The notes under the pieces were generated by a model. The model had not been told where the DNA came from, made no database searches, and worked only from the letters and a program-made list of their open reading frames with translations. A DNA stretch of 64,000 nt. Source: Microvirga puerhi (GTDB lineage: Bacteria > Pseudomonadota > Alphaproteobacteria > Rhizobiales > Beijerinckiaceae). Positions 56,589 through 64,000 of this stretch are shown piece after piece. The translations under genes were made by a program, and so were the position numbers. Where the stretch lies: the NCBI RefSeq assembly GCF_020089865.1, contig NZ_JAIRBM010000002.1, positions 124,001-188,000 on the forward strand, written 5' to 3'. Position 1 is the first letter of the stretch; each line of letters opens with the position of its first letter.

Positions 56589-57007
56589 CCATCCTTTGTC
56601 TTTACGCCCCCGCCGCGCAAAGACATCGACGCTAATGAACAACCGGTTAATAGCCAAGGTGATGAGCGTTACGCATCTAACTGTCGGCACAACCGATAGG
56701 GCCCGCAGCAGGCCGAGGTGCTCGAAGCAATTTTTCGCTCATGAGATCCTGGACGCGGAGTTAAGCCAAGCTTCAGGCGCGCCGAGATAGCTTCTCGAAA
56801 TAGATATCGCGTATTATTGTAACCCATCTGAGGGGCCACGTCGTACCGGACATTCCCGGAGCATTGGACCATTCGATGCTGACAGTCGCCGTCCAGCTCA
56901 GAATTATTCCGCCTGAAAGCGCAGGTTTGACACTGGAATTGACCGAAACTACCCTATTTTCCAAGGCTTGAAGTCAGTGCAGTGCAAAAGACCGAGGGAG
57001 GGTTACC
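56589..57007. other. Upstream region of the formate dehydrogenase operon
   Basis: 420 bases. TTGACA at 56927-56932 with TACCCT at 56950-56955 (17-base spacer) is a weak promoter candidate 50 bases before fdoG. No convincing regulator site is seen, and the minus-strand frames at 56669 and 56773 lack start signals. Confidence 0.35.
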
Positions 57008-60000
57008 ATGAATATGGAACTCTCACGGCGCGGCTTCCTTAAGGCAGCCGGCGTGGGTGTTGCAGGAACTACTTTGGGAGCTTTCGGGTTCGCAGACCTT
57101 GAGGCGGCGCAAGCCGCGGCCATCAGGCCTTTCAAGCTGACGAATACGATGGAGACACGCAATACGTGTCCCTATTGCTCGGTGGCCTGCGGCATCATCA
57201 TGTATTCAAAAGGGGATCTCCGGAAGGGCGAGATGGCCGAGATCATCCATATCGAGGGTGATGCCGACCATCCAACCAACCGGGGAACACTTTGTCCTAA
57301 GGGGGCTGCCCTCAAGGATTTCGTGAAGGCCGACACTCGGTTGAAATACCCGATGGTTCGCAAGCCTGGGTCAGACCGGTTCGAACGGGTTTCATGGGAT
57401 CAGGCACTTGATCGTATTGCCAGGCTGATGAAGGACGATCGCGATGCGAACTTCATCGCCACCAACAAGGCAGGCGTTCCTGTCAATCGCTGGACGACCG
57501 TAGGCTTCCTTGCCGCCTCGGCAACCACGAACGAGACTGCCTACCTGACTTACAAGGTTGTCCGCAGCACGGGAATCGTTGCATTCGATAATCAGGCGCG
57601 CGTTTGACACGGCCCCACGGTGTCCAGTCTGGGCCCAACTTTCGGTCGTGGCGCAATGACCAATTCGTGGACCGATATTCGGAACACGGATCTCGTCGTC
57701 ATCATGGGTGGCAACGCTGCCGAGGCACACCCGTGCGGATTCAAATGGGTGACGGAGGCAAAGGCTAATCGTGGCGCTAGGCTCATCGTAATCGATCCGC
57801 GCTTCACGCGTTCGGCTTCAGTGTCCGATTTCTATGCCCCCATTCGCCAGGGCACGGATATCGCGTTCCTTCTTGGTTTGATCAACTACTGTATGCAGAA
57901 CGACAAGGTGCAGTGGCCATACGTGAAATCTTTCACCAATGCGACGTACGTGGTGAAGGATGGGTTCGCCTATCAGGACGGTTTGTTCACAGGCTACGAC
58001 GAGAGCAAGCGCGACTATGACCGCTCGACCTGGGAATACGATATTGGGCCGGATGGCTTCGCCGTTGTCGATGAGACACTGCAAAATCCGCGCTGCGTCT
58101 GGAACATGCTCAAGTCCCACGTGGCATCCTATACGCCGGAGATGGTCGAGCGGATCTGTGGCACTCCGAGGGAGAAATTCCTGAAGGTCGCTCAGATGAT
58201 CTCCGAGTGCTCTGTACCGACGAAGACCATGACGTCGATGTATGCGCTTGGTTGGACGCAGCATTCCAAGGGTTCGCAGAACATTCGCGCCATGGCGATG
58301 CTGCAGCTCATTCTCGGCAATATCGGCGTGCGCGGCGGCGGAATGAACGCGTTGCGCGGGCACTCGAACATTCAGGGCCTCACCGATGTGGGTCTGATGT
58401 CCAATCTTCTCCCGGGCTATCTGAACATTCCGGTCGAAAAGGAGACTGATTTTACGACCTACATGTCGAGCCGTACCTTCAAGCCTCTGCGTCCCGATCA
58501 GACGAGCTACTGGCAGAACTACAAGAAGTTCTTCGTCAGTTTCCAGAAGGCCATGTGGGGATCCGCTGCAACGGCGGAGAACGACTTTGCCTATCAGTAC
58601 CTGCCCAAGCTTGATGTTCCGGCCTATGACGTGCTGCGCATCTTCGAGATGATGTATCGAGGGCAGGTGAACGGCTATGTTTGCCAGGGGTTCAACCCCC
58701 TTCTCGCTTTCCCGAACCGCAAGAAGATCACCGAGTCGCTCTCCAAGCTGAAATGGCTCGTGACCATAGATCCGCTCGATACGGAGACTTCGCGTTTCTG
58801 GGAGAACCACGGCGAATATAACGACGTGAATTCTGCCACCATCCAGACGGAAGTGATCCAGCTACCCTCCACCTGTTTTGCGGAGGATAACGGATCGCTC
58901 ACCAATTCGGGTCGATGGCTGCAATGGCATTGGGCTGGGGGCACGCCACCCGGTGAGGCGAAGCGCGACAACTGGATCATGGCGCAGATCTTCCGGCGTC
59001 TGCGAGCGCTTTATGAGAAAGAGGGTGGGCCCTTCCCGGATCCGATTCTCAATCTCACGTGGAATTACCAAAATCCGGACGAACCGACGGCGGATGAACT
59101 CGCGAAAGAAATCAACGGCTACGCTGTCGAAACACTCTACGATCCTGCCGACCCCACGAAGGTTCTCCTGGAAAAAGGAAAGCAGGTCGTCAATTTCTCG
59201 GTCCTGCGCGATGATGGCACTACAGCCAGCGGTTGCTGGATTTATTCCGGCTGTTATAACGAGGCCGGCAACAACATGGCTCGTCGGGACAATACAGATC
59301 CCGACGATACAGGCGCCTATCTCAACTGGACTTTCGCTTGGCCGCTTAATCGACGCATCCTCTATAACCGCGCATCTGCGGACCTTCAGGGCAACCCATG
59401 GGATCCCTCCCGTAAGCTGATTGCATGGGATGGCTCCAAATGGTCCGGCTACGATGTTCCGGATATTGCGCCGACCGCCAAGCCCGACGTGGTCGGTCCC
59501 TTCATCATGAACCAGGAAGGAACTGCGCGCCTCTTCGCCCGTGGACTGATGCGCGATGGACCCTTCCCGGTTCATTACGAGCCGTTCGAGGCACCGATTG
59601 CCAATGTCATTGCACCGAAGATACGCGGCAATCCTGTAGCACGGATCTTCCAGGACGATGTGGCGCAGTTCGCCACGTCGGAAGAGTTCCCTTACGCGGC
59701 GACGTCATATCGACTCACCGAGCACTTCCACTACTGGACGAAGCACAACCGGGTGAATGCGGTGCTCCAGCCGGAATTCTTCGTGGAAATCTCAGAGCAG
59801 CTCGCGGCCGAAAAAGGGATCACGCCCGGCTCATGGGTGCGGGTCTGGTCGAAACGCGGCGAGGTGAAAGCCAAAGCCGTGGTGACGAAGCGCATCAAGC
59901 CGCTCATGTGTGACGGCAAGAAGGTTCATGTGGTCGGTATCCCACTGCATTGGGGCTTCATGGGGCAGGCCCGAAAAGGGTGGGGACCCAACTCCCTTAC

Positions 60001-60091
60001 GCCTTTCGTGGGCGACGCCAACATCGAAACGCCCGAATACAAGGCGTTTCTGGTCAACATCGAGTCTACGACACCCCCGGCGACGGTTTAA
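57008..60091 (+). CDS. fdoG: Formate dehydrogenase alpha subunit, selenocysteine-containing
   Basis: A 1027-residue molybdopterin selenoprotein read through the in-frame TGA at 57605-57607 (Sec200). The twin-arginine signal is [20 protein letters not shown], for export as a folded complex. The 4Fe-4S site is [13 protein letters not shown] with the later [10 protein letters not shown]. The Sec context [27 protein letters not shown] is that of FdnG/FdoG, which has Sec exactly there. The molybdopterin domains follow, and the C-terminal [14 protein letters not shown] matches the family. It oxidises formate to CO2 at the periplasmic face and passes electrons to FdoH. A GGAGGG site precedes the start. 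Confidence 0.96.
57605..57642 (+). promoter_or_regulatory. SECIS-like hairpin after the Sec codon
   Basis: After TGA, GG-T-GTCC (57619-57625) pairs with GGGC-CC (57631-57636) around the loop AGTCT. The layout (short upper stem, single bulged T at 57621, a GU-containing loop) is that of the E. coli fdhF/fdnG SECIS bound by SelB. The distance of 11 bases from TGA fits. Confidence 0.82.
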
Positions 60092-60102
60092 GGAGGAATG
60101 GA

Positions 60103-61053
60103 ATGGAACCAAGTCCTCATACGGCGCAAAGCAACCCTCCCGTCGCGGCCACGACTTCTAACCTGACGGAGAAGGATCTCATTCGCCGCTCGGCTTCGAC
60201 TGTTCCGCCACCTGCGCGGCAGCTGGAGCCGGTCGCGAAACTGATCGATGTGTCCAAGTGTATCGGCTGCAAAGCGTGTCAATCTGCCTGCATCGAGTGG
60301 AATGACACTCAGCCGGCCATTGAGACCAATGTCGGCGTCTACGAGAACCCGCATGACCTGACGCCCGAAATGTTCACCCTGATGCGGTTCAACGAATGGG
60401 ACAATCCGCAGACTGGCAACCTCGAGTGGCTGATTCGCAAGGATGGCTGCATGCACTGCGCGGATCCGGGCTGCCTGAAGGCCTGCCCTGCGCCCGGTGC
60501 CATCGTTCAGTATTCAAATGGCATCGTCGATTTCGTCCATGAGAACTGCATCGGTTGCGGCTATTGCATCAAGGGGTGCCCCTTCAACATCCCGCGCATC
60601 TCGAAGGTCGATCACACAGCCTACAAGTGCACGCTCTGCTCGGACCGCGTCGCAGTCGGGCAGGGGCCCGCCTGCGCCAAGGCCTGCCCAACTCACTCCA
60701 TCTCCTTCGGTACAAAGGAGGATATGAAGGCGCTGGCCGACAGCAGAATCAAGGACCTGAAGTCGCGCGGCTATGAGAATGCCGGACTTTATGATCCTCC
60801 GGGTGTCGGCGGTACGCATGTGATGTACGTTCTTCATCATAACGATCAACCTGAGATCTATTCAGGTCTGCCGAAAAATCCGAGGATCAGTCCAGTGGTC
60901 AACGCCTGGAAGGGGATGACGAAGTACCTGGGCTTTGCCGCGATGGGGCTGGCAGCCGCGGCTGGAGTTCTCCATTCCACCCTCGTCGGACCGAACCGGG
61001 TGACCCGCGAGGACGAGGATGAAGCCGAAAAGCTCGTGAAGGAGTCGGTCTGA
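60103..61053 (+). CDS. fdoH: Formate dehydrogenase iron-sulfur beta subunit
   Basis: A 316-residue subunit with four 4Fe-4S clusters in ferredoxin-like Cys patterns: [41 protein letters not shown] and [23 protein letters not shown]-terminal membrane anchor at about 272-292 ([20 protein letters not shown]) ties it to FdoI. It relays electrons from FdoG to the cytochrome. The ATG at 60103 follows AGGAGG by six bases. Its last base overlaps the fdoI start. Confidence 0.96.
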
Positions 61054-61748
61054 TGCCTGTCAAAGACATCGAAGAAGGTGATGCTATCGAGCCGGGACCG
61101 CCGGTCGTCGTCGACCGGTATACAGGAGGCGCGCGGATCAATCACTGGGTCACGGCGATATGCCTTATTCTGCTCGCGCTGTCCGGACTGGCGTTATTCC
61201 ATCCTTGGCTATTCTTCCTCAGCGGCCTTTTCGGAGGTGGGCAGAATACGCGTGCCATTCATCCTTGGATTGGTGTCGTACTGTTCTTCAGTTTTGCAGG
61301 CCTTTTCATCCGGTTCTGGCGTGCCAATCTTCCGGCACAGGTCGACAAGGATTGGCTGACCCATGCGGACGATCTGCTCGCCGGGCGTGAAGAGAGAATG
61401 CCTGAAGTTGGAAAATACAATGCTGGCCAGAAAGCCATTTTCTGGAGCATGGCGACCCTGATCATTGTTCTCATCTTTTCCGGATTCGTGATCTGGGATC
61501 AGTACTTCGCCGATTGGACGACTATCCCACAAAAGCGCGTGGCCGTCCTCGTCCATTCGCTTGCCGCCGTTGTCATCATTTGCGTTTGGATCATCCATGT
61601 GTACGCAGCGATCTGGGTAAGAGGAACCATCCCGGCGATGACACACGGCTCCGTGACGGGAGGGTGGGCTTGGCGACATCATCGCCTCTGGTTGAAAGAA
61701 CTGGCCGAGCGACACAGATTCAAGAAGCCGGAGGCGCCTGCCGAGTAA
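61053..61748 (+). CDS. fdoI: Formate dehydrogenase cytochrome b556 gamma subunit
   Basis: A 231-residue di-haem membrane subunit with four helices: WVTAICLILLALSGLALFHPWLFFLSGLF, HPWIGVVLFFSFAGLFIRFW, AIFWSMATLIIVLIFSGFVIWDQYF and VAVLVHSLAAVVIICVWIIHVYAAIWV. His residues in helices (NHWVTAIC, IHPWIG, VHSLAAV, IIHVYAA) are candidate haem ligands. It passes electrons to quinone. A GARINHWVTA N-terminus is typical. The start overlaps the fdoH stop. Confidence 0.95.
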   Translation: MPVKDIEEGDAIEPGPPVVVDRYTGGARINHWVTAICLILLALSGLALFHPWLFFLSGLFGGGQNTRAIHPWIGVVLFFSFAGLFIRFWRANLPAQVDKDWLTHADDLLAGREERMPEVGKYNAGQKAIFWSMATLIIVLIFSGFVIWDQYFADWTTIPQKRVAVLVHSLAAVVIICVWIIHVYAAIWVRGTIPAMTHGSVTGGWAWRHHRLWLKELAERHRFKKPEAPAE

Positions 61749-61790: not shown

Positions 61791-62708
61791 ATGACAAGTC
61801 CAAATTTTCCTACGCCCAATGCCGCTTCGGAAGGCCGCGTTCCGGCCCCGCCCTTCGTCCGACTTCCCGATCCAGGCAGCCTTTTTGAGGGCCGTCGTCA
61901 GCGCCTCGAAACTCTGGCGCAGACAAGCGGGCTTGCTCCCTATCTGCACTTCGTGGCCGGTCTGGCGGAGGCTCAAAGGCGCATTCAGGATGGACTGCCT
62001 GAGCCGAAGCAGCCACTTCCGGAAGCACTCGCCCGTGCCCATGAGTTCGGAATGCCGCCGCTCGATCGGACTCGGATCGAGGTGGATGCTACTTTGAGCG
62101 AAACACTGACGCGCCTGTTCGATGCCGCCTTACCTCTTTCCAAACCGACAGAAGCGCAGGCCGCTCTTGAGCGGGTGAGGGGGATGACGGCGGAGGTTCT
62201 GGCTGAGATCGTGCGAAGCGTTCTCGCAGATTCAATTCCGGCTGACGCCATTGCCGAGCACGCTTACGTGGCCGCAGGGCTGCAGGTTCACTTCACGCGT
62301 CTTGTTGCCAAACTCGAGGCGGAGAAGCTGGTTCGGCTTGGGGATAGCATCTGTCCTAGCTGCGGTGGTCCGCCTACGTCGACGCTCGTTGTCGGCTGGA
62401 TCGGAGCCGAAGGTGCTCGTTATTGCTCCTGCTCTCTTTGCAGTACCCTGTGGAATGTCGTGCGTGTGAAATGCATTCTGTGCAGTTCTACAAAGGGTAT
62501 CGGATATAAGGAAATCGAGGGAGGCCCCGGAACTGTCAAAGCGGAATGCTGCGACAATTGCCGTGGATACGTGAAGATCCTGTATCAACACAAGGATGCT
62601 GCCCTGGATCCTGTGGCGGACGATATCGCAAGCCTCGGGCTCGACCTTCTTCTGCAGAAAACCGAGTACCGTCGCGGCAGCTTCAACCCATTCCTGCTCA
62701 GGGTCTAG
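61791..62708 (+). CDS. fdhE: Formate dehydrogenase accessory protein FdhE
   Basis: A 305-residue FdhE, needed for maturation and activity of respiratory formate dehydrogenases. The C-terminal half has the rubredoxin-like Cys pairs CPSCGGPP, CSLCSTLWNVVRVKCILC and CCDNCRGYVK that bind iron or zinc; the N-terminal half is helical (RLPDPGSLFEGRRQRLETLAQ). It lies 42 bases behind fdoI and three before selA, in the same operon as its target. Confidence 0.93.
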   Translation: MTSPNFPTPNAASEGRVPAPPFVRLPDPGSLFEGRRQRLETLAQTSGLAPYLHFVAGLAEAQRRIQDGLPEPKQPLPEALARAHEFGMPPLDRTRIEVDATLSETLTRLFDAALPLSKPTEAQAALERVRGMTAEVLAEIVRSVLADSIPADAIAEHAYVAAGLQVHFTRLVAKLEAEKLVRLGDSICPSCGGPPTSTLVVGWIGAEGARYCSCSLCSTLWNVVRVKCILCSSTKGIGYKEIEGGPGTVKAECCDNCRGYVKILYQHKDAALDPVADDIASLGLDLLLQKTEYRRGSFNPFLLRV

Positions 62709-62711
62709 TCG

Positions 62712-64000
62712 ATGATGGACGCTGCTCAGTCTCCTCTTCGCCGGCTTCCTTCCGTGAATCGCCTATTGCGCCATCCCATCATGATGACATTGGTCGAACG
62801 CCACGGTCATTCGGAGACGGCTGATGTCATCCGAGAAACTCTGTCGACCCTTCGTCAGGAGTTGCAGTCGAGCTGCGAGATCGATGAAACCAGCATTGTC
62901 GCTTCCGTTTTGTCGCGTGTCGAAGCGAGGGCGGCGACCCAATTAAAGCCACTCTTCAACCTCACCGGTACGGTGCTGCACACCAATTTTGGTCGCGCTG
63001 TCCTCGCTGAGGAGGCTATTGCGGCGGCGATCGCAGCGATGCGCAATCCGGTATCCCTGGAGTTCGGCCTTGATGATGGCAAGCGCGGCGAGCGCGACGA
63101 TCACATTCGGGCACTTGTCTGCGAGCTGACGGGGGCAGAGGATGCAACTCTCGTCAACAACAATGCCGCAGCGGTTCTTCTCGTCCTCAACACATTCTCG
63201 CAGAACCGTGAAGCCATTGTGTCCCGTGGCGAGCTCATTGAGATTGGCGGTGCATTCCGCATGCCTGAGATCATGGCACGGGCCGGTGCACGCCTGCGCG
63301 AGGTTGGCACCACGAACCGCACTCATCCGCGTGATTACGAGATGGCGATCGGAGAGGATACGGGCCTTATCCTCAAGGTTCACACATCCAACTACCGGAT
63401 TGAAGGCTTCACTGCGGCAGTCAGCGCCCGTGTTCTTGGCAAGATAGCGAAGGCGCATAACGTGCCGCTCGTCAATGATCTCGGCTCGGGAACGTTGATA
63501 GATCTTGCTCGGTTCGGGCTTTCGAAAGAGCCGACCGTGCGGGAGGCCGTGGAGGAGGGGGCGGATCTCGTAACCTTCTCCGGCGATAAACTCCTTGGAG
63601 GGCCACAAGCCGGATTCATCGTCGGCCGCAAGGAATTCATCGCTACGATCAATCGAAACCCCATGAAGCGTGCCCTGCGTGTGGACAAGATCCGGCTGGC
63701 TGGCTGCGAAGCGACCCTTAAGCTCTATCGCAATCCGGAGCGGCTCGCAGAGCGCCTGCCTATTCTCCGTTGCTTGACAAGGTCCGTGGAAGAGATCGCT
63801 GAGCAGGCGAGGCGCCTCGCCCCTTTCGTAGCGGATGCTATCGGGACTGATACCGCGATTGAAATCTTGCCCTGTCAAAGTCAGATCGGTTCTGGTGCGC
63901 TTCCGCTTGAAACTGTGCCGAGCGTCGGTCTCGCGTTGAAGCCGAGGGGAGGTGGGCGAGCTCTAGACGCTTTGGGCAACGCTTTCAGAAAATTGCCGCG
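62712..64000 (+). CDS. selA: L-seryl-tRNA(Sec) selenium transferase (3' end outside window)
   Basis: At least 429 residues, open to the window end. A PLP enzyme converting seryl-tRNA(Sec) to selenocysteinyl-tRNA(Sec). Motifs: LRRLPSVNRLLRHP at the start, LFNLTGTVLHTNFGRAVLAEEAI, YRIEGFTA and the PLP-lysine segment VTFSGDKLLGGPQAGFIVG. Two ATGs (62712, 62715) are possible starts. It follows fdhE within four bases. SelA supplies the Sec-tRNA needed to read the UGA of fdoG; selB probably follows outside the window. Confidence 0.96.
   Translation, partial: MMDAAQSPLRRLPSVNRLLRHPIMMTLVERHGHSETADVIRETLSTLRQELQSSCEIDETSIVASVLSRVEARAATQLKPLFNLTGTVLHTNFGRAVLAEEAIAAAIAAMRNPVSLEFGLDDGKRGERDDHIRALVCELTGAEDATLVNNNAAAVLLVLNTFSQNREAIVSRGELIEIGGAFRMPEIMARAGARLREVGTTNRTHPRDYEMAIGEDTGLILKVHTSNYRIEGFTAAVSARVLGKIAKAHNVPLVNDLGSGTLIDLARFGLSKEPTVREAVEEGADLVTFSGDKLLGGPQAGFIVGRKEFIATINRNPMKRALRVDKIRLAGCEATLKLYRNPERLAERLPILRCLTRSVEEIAEQARRLAPFVADAIGTDTAIEILPCQSQIGSGALPLETVPSVGLALKPRGGGRALDALGNAFRKLP

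Follow-up and report, generated by a model that had tools for sequence, protein, structure and literature searches.

The window analyzed here is a stretch of 64,000 nt (G000:C12:124001-188000) from a genome of 5.17 Mb in 47 contigs. On its plus strand lies fdnG/fdoG (57008-60091), which encodes the alpha subunit of formate dehydrogenase-N/O according to TIGR01553, Pfam and the structure of Escherichia coli FdnG (PDB 1kqf_A). When the frame was translated from the ATG at 57008 to the TAA at 60089-60091, the sole stop within it was a TGA at 57605-57607, and reading this TGA as U gives a protein of 1027 residues with the local context DNQARV-U-HGPTV. The read-through protein scored 1404 bits against TIGR01553 (formate dehydrogenase-N alpha; cut-off 814.2), and Pfam recognized a Tat signal and Fe4S4, molybdopterin and MGD-binding domains in it. 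The alignment with E. coli FdnG is nearly full length and places residue 200 opposite Sec196, which is shown as X in the 1kqf sequence. These results agree with an earlier reading of the sequence alone, which had noted that one TGA splits an otherwise continuous FdnG/FdoG frame at the active-site position. The same sequence-only reading held that automatic annotation often divides this gene in two, which holds only in part here: one record of a relative carries a single fdnG CDS of 3087 bp, and another lists no fdnG CDS (PLSDB table). The closest named relatives of fdoG are Microvirga records, at a protein identity of 90-91%. Upstream of the gene, the hexamers TTGACA-17-TACCCT (56927-56955, plus strand), picked out by eye in an alignment of the window with three Microvirga records and largely conserved across the four sequences, may tentatively be read as a sigma-70-type promoter; the consensus promoter scan did not detect them.

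Downstream of fdoG, on the same strand, lie fdnH/fdoH (60103-61053; TIGR01582, 493 bits, cut-off 335) for the beta (iron-sulfur) subunit, fdnI/fdoI (61053-61748; TIGR01583, 178 bits, cut-off 116) for the gamma (cytochrome b556) subunit, fdhE (61791-62708; TIGR01562, 284 bits, cut-off 188) for the formate dehydrogenase accessory protein, and selA (62712-64000; TIGR00474, 550 bits, cut-off 268) for L-seryl-tRNA(Sec) selenium transferase. The last gene runs past the window and encodes 467 aa when complete (L009:6213-7616). The full decoding set is present, with selA followed within about 4 kb by selB (C12:188112-190001; 423 bits, cut-off 242), the tRNA-Sec gene selC (C12:190056-190147; 77.8 bits) and, on the minus strand, selD (C12:190660-191586; 419 bits, cut-off 125), all three beyond the window. 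SelB has GTPase, beta-barrel and winged-helix domains, and the tRNA-Sec has the anticodon UCA (TCA in the gene) and, in its fold, the extended 8+5 acceptor branch, with an 8-bp acceptor and a 5-bp T stem. A second tRNA-Sec match above the cut-off (C45:220274, 52 bits) was rejected, as ARAGORN identified it as tRNA-Ser (TGA). The location of selA in the fdoG operon had been taken as support for active Sec decoding, and the absence of selB and selC from the genome as a sign against it; both genes were found, directly beside selA, and selD is present as well, which adds to that support.

The tRNA-Sec gene (L009:9557-9652; 96 nt with CCA) lies wholly inside the selB ORF (L009:7550-9685), on the same strand and in frame, such that in the selB frame its first codon, GGA, encodes Gly and its terminal CCA encodes Pro. 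selB ends 33 nt past the tRNA and is followed by a gene on the minus strand. The same nesting was found in 41 of the 55 loci in which ARAGORN called a tRNA-Sec, a count that comes from a simple frame test and in which a few cases, such as L086, may be spurious. The arrangement is not new, since tRNA-Sec inside selB in Alphaproteobacteria was published by Mukai 2021 together with the proposal that the selB message is destroyed when the tRNA is processed (PMC8124441). In many of the published nested cases, although not in all, the stop codon of selB overlaps the start of a downstream ORF (PMC8124441). The in-frame nesting is the same here, but an overlap of the selB stop with the start of a downstream ORF1 or ORF2 was absent at our locus. 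By eye, the selB stop codon lies within an apparent intrinsic terminator (AGTGC...GCACTTTTT).

At the TGA of fdoG, the Rfam model RF01989 (SECIS_3) matched positions 57602-57660 on the plus strand with 78.8 bits (gathering score 63, E 1.8e-18), covering model positions 1-59 of 59. This was the single match above threshold in the whole genome; a weak match on contig C34 (18.7 bits) fell below the cut-off. Based on the fold and the Rfam match, the predicted element has a lower stem (57608-57650), in which 57608-57614 pairs with 57644-57650, and an apical hairpin (57619-57636), which is probably the part that binds SelB. In the apical hairpin, the T at 57621 is bulged and the loop includes GTC (57627-57629). 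With the U of UGA as position 1, the bulged U is U17 and the loop bases G 57627 and U 57628 are G23 and U24. In the SECIS of E. coli fdhF, positions 17, 23 and 24 are conserved, and U17 and G23 contact SelB (review PMC8659212). The sequence-only reading had described a hairpin with a bulged T and a GU loop 11 bases past the TGA and had suggested comparing its fold with a SelB-bound SECIS; the hairpin is found at 57619-57636, and U17, G23 and U24 fall on the E. coli fdhF positions. The end that it gave for the element, 57642, has to be revised, as the lower stem has its 3′ arm at 57644-57650 and the Rfam match extends to 57660. Folded by itself, the sequence has an unremarkable energy (z -0.54), and a fold as good as the native one was reached by 134 of 1000 synonymous recodings chosen at random and by 499 of 1000 when codons were weighted by usage. 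Since the z score is unremarkable and recodings fold equally well, the energy is no evidence for the hairpin; the evidence for the SECIS element is the Rfam score and the covariation.

The codon and the hairpin were compared across 109 loci, which comprise 80 named relatives, 28 family genomes (our own gene is among these) and the locus of the window. The codon is TGA in 109 of 109 loci, including relatives down to 62% identity, and no homologue with Cys at the Sec site was found among the 108 relatives (at least 62% identity). Among 78 distinct SECIS sequences, 92% of the cells are paired, and changes on both sides occur at five pairs. The number of double-changed cells was 72, compared to 42 ± 2.7 expected when synonymous codons were permuted within each column, and 72 was reached in none of 1000 such shuffles. 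In a phylogeny of 105 FdoG proteins, pair 22-32 switches state nine times (U-G to G-C), with both sides changing together in 9 of 9 independent contrasts, and both sides of pair 24-30 agree in 5 of 5. The two-sided changes of pairs 21-33 and 24-30 involve third codon positions only; therefore, protein constraint cannot explain their covariation. Pair 22-32 couples Ser206/Gly209 with Ala206/Ala209, and the RNA and protein readings are inseparable there. Taken together, these alignments indicate that the hairpin is conserved through compensatory changes and is not degraded; the combination of Cys homologues and a degraded hairpin in relatives, which had been named as the observation that would speak against selenocysteine, was not found. 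In one family member (L118, G051:C1:325981-329043), fdoG has an in-frame TAA in addition to the Sec TGA and is possibly a decaying copy.

These data bear on the idea that the hairpin is conserved by protein-coding constraint only and that the true element lies elsewhere. The hairpin energy, which is ordinary given the encoded peptide and the codon usage, agrees with such an explanation. However, pairs 21-33 and 24-30 change on both sides at third codon positions that the protein does not constrain, and the RF01989 match lies at this very hairpin. We consider this explanation very unlikely, as it is already disfavoured by the synonymous covariation.

We surveyed 48 genomes of the genus for co-occurrence of the components. 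TGA-bearing FdoG, SECIS_3 above the cut-off and tRNA-Sec were each found in 17 genomes. FdoG and tRNA-Sec occur together in 16 of the 48 genomes, neither occurs in 30, and two genomes (G156 and G165) deviate; tRNA-Sec was found in none of the 30 genomes without any TGA-bearing FdnG. Fisher's test gave p 1e-11 for the co-occurrence of FdoG and tRNA-Sec, a value that overstates its strength because the genomes are related and not phylogenetically independent. The pattern is what would be expected of a module that is acquired or lost as a whole. In G156, a draft of 250 contigs, FdoG with TGA and SECIS is present at C208:17176-20256, but tRNA-Sec was not found at E 1e-12, which reflects either an incomplete assembly or a loss of decoding. 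G165 is without this FdoG but has tRNA-Sec and a different TGA-bearing formate dehydrogenase (L163, G165:C2:245284-248271, minus strand) that is 43% identical, with an N-terminal part closest to NF041513, an in-frame TGA of its own and a hairpin that resembles a SECIS (33.5 bits); this enzyme appears to be a second selenoprotein that was acquired independently. A SECIS_3 match on contig C26 of G182 (27.9 bits) was taken as chance, with no formate dehydrogenase-like frame there.

Limited UGA read-through is known in bacteria generally, and the codon could in principle be read as Cys, Ser or Trp by a near-cognate or altered tRNA without SelB. We regard this as extremely improbable: the only tRNA-Sec has the anticodon UCA, the full SelA/B/D set adjoins, the bases of the SECIS that contact SelB are kept, and fdoG and tRNA-Sec co-occur across the genus. 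The chance that the TGA is a true stop, leaving a pseudogene or a sequencing error from which two fragments or none are made, is close to nil: read mechanically, the sequence contains two ORFs (57008-57607 and 57620-60091), but relatives with identities as low as 62% share the TGA at this codon, the rest of the frame is without stops, the downstream genes are intact, and the hairpin after the TGA is conserved and covarying.

The in-frame UGA of fdoG is thus almost certainly read as selenocysteine, as judged from sequence comparison. With very high confidence, we assign the gene to a respiratory formate dehydrogenase of the FdnG/FdoG type that is membrane-bound and exported by the Tat pathway, its product being the alpha subunit, with Sec, encoded by UGA, as the active-site residue 200. 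Following established biochemistry, the SECIS hairpin right after the UGA would be bound by the C-terminal winged helices of SelB, which would bring Sec-tRNA(Sec) to the A site of the ribosome, competing there with release factor 2; SelA would convert Ser-tRNA(Sec) into Sec-tRNA(Sec), using selenophosphate supplied by SelD. Sec would in this way be inserted into FdoG to yield an active enzyme, and formate oxidation would presumably be coupled to the quinone pool. The genes fdoGHI-fdhE-selA-selB (with selC inside)-selD would form a self-contained module for Sec decoding and formate oxidation. These results indicate that UGA is decoded as Sec in this organism (closest named relatives, Microvirga) and that its respiratory formate dehydrogenase must be read through in annotation. 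The synonymous covariation and the patchy co-occurrence with tRNA-Sec provide clean comparative evidence for a SECIS that folding of a single sequence would not flag.

Compared to FdnG/FdoG of E. coli, for which SECIS_3 also scored above the cut-off as a control, the near full-length homology, the position of Sec196 opposite residue 200 and the alpha, beta and gamma subunits are the same, whereas here the sel genes adjoin the structural genes in one module. Plasmids of Sinorhizobium, Rhizobium, Ensifer and Phyllobacterium share about 73-74% nucleotide identity with fdoGHI over 99%, and in Phyllobacterium the gene order, including fdhE and selA, is the same as here. A fdoGHI-selABCD cluster is known from pSymA of Sinorhizobium meliloti (PMC8124441), and clusters of the type fdoGHI-fdhE-selAB(C) have been described (PMC8124441, PMC1794560). 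In S. meliloti a transposon lies between selAB and selCD (PMC8124441), whereas selB, selC and selD are contiguous here, with selD on the opposite strand. Sec-decoding Alphaproteobacteria, Betaproteobacteria and Pseudomonadales have been reported to carry comparable selA-selB-selC operons, with fdhA next to them as the sole selenoprotein gene (PMC1794560). No publication on selenocysteine and formate dehydrogenase in Microvirga was found in a literature search. Because the cluster is known from pSymA, from these operons and from rhizobial plasmids, the UGA and SECIS of fdoG are a correct reading of an already known system; the result is sound but ordinary, adding no new principle to an arrangement well known in these bacteria.

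A more speculative reading, which we consider possible but rather doubtful, is that the SECIS helix dictates enzyme residues beside the active site, with the toggle of pair 22-32 forcing the change from Ser206/Gly209 to Ala206/Ala209 about nine times, and that, with selC nested in selB, a single transcript would yield either SelB or tRNA-Sec.

Elsewhere in the genome (G000:C9:99602-101629, minus strand), a second formate dehydrogenase alpha subunit scored above the TIGR01591 cut-off. It is without an in-frame stop, and therefore formate oxidation need not rest on selenium alone.
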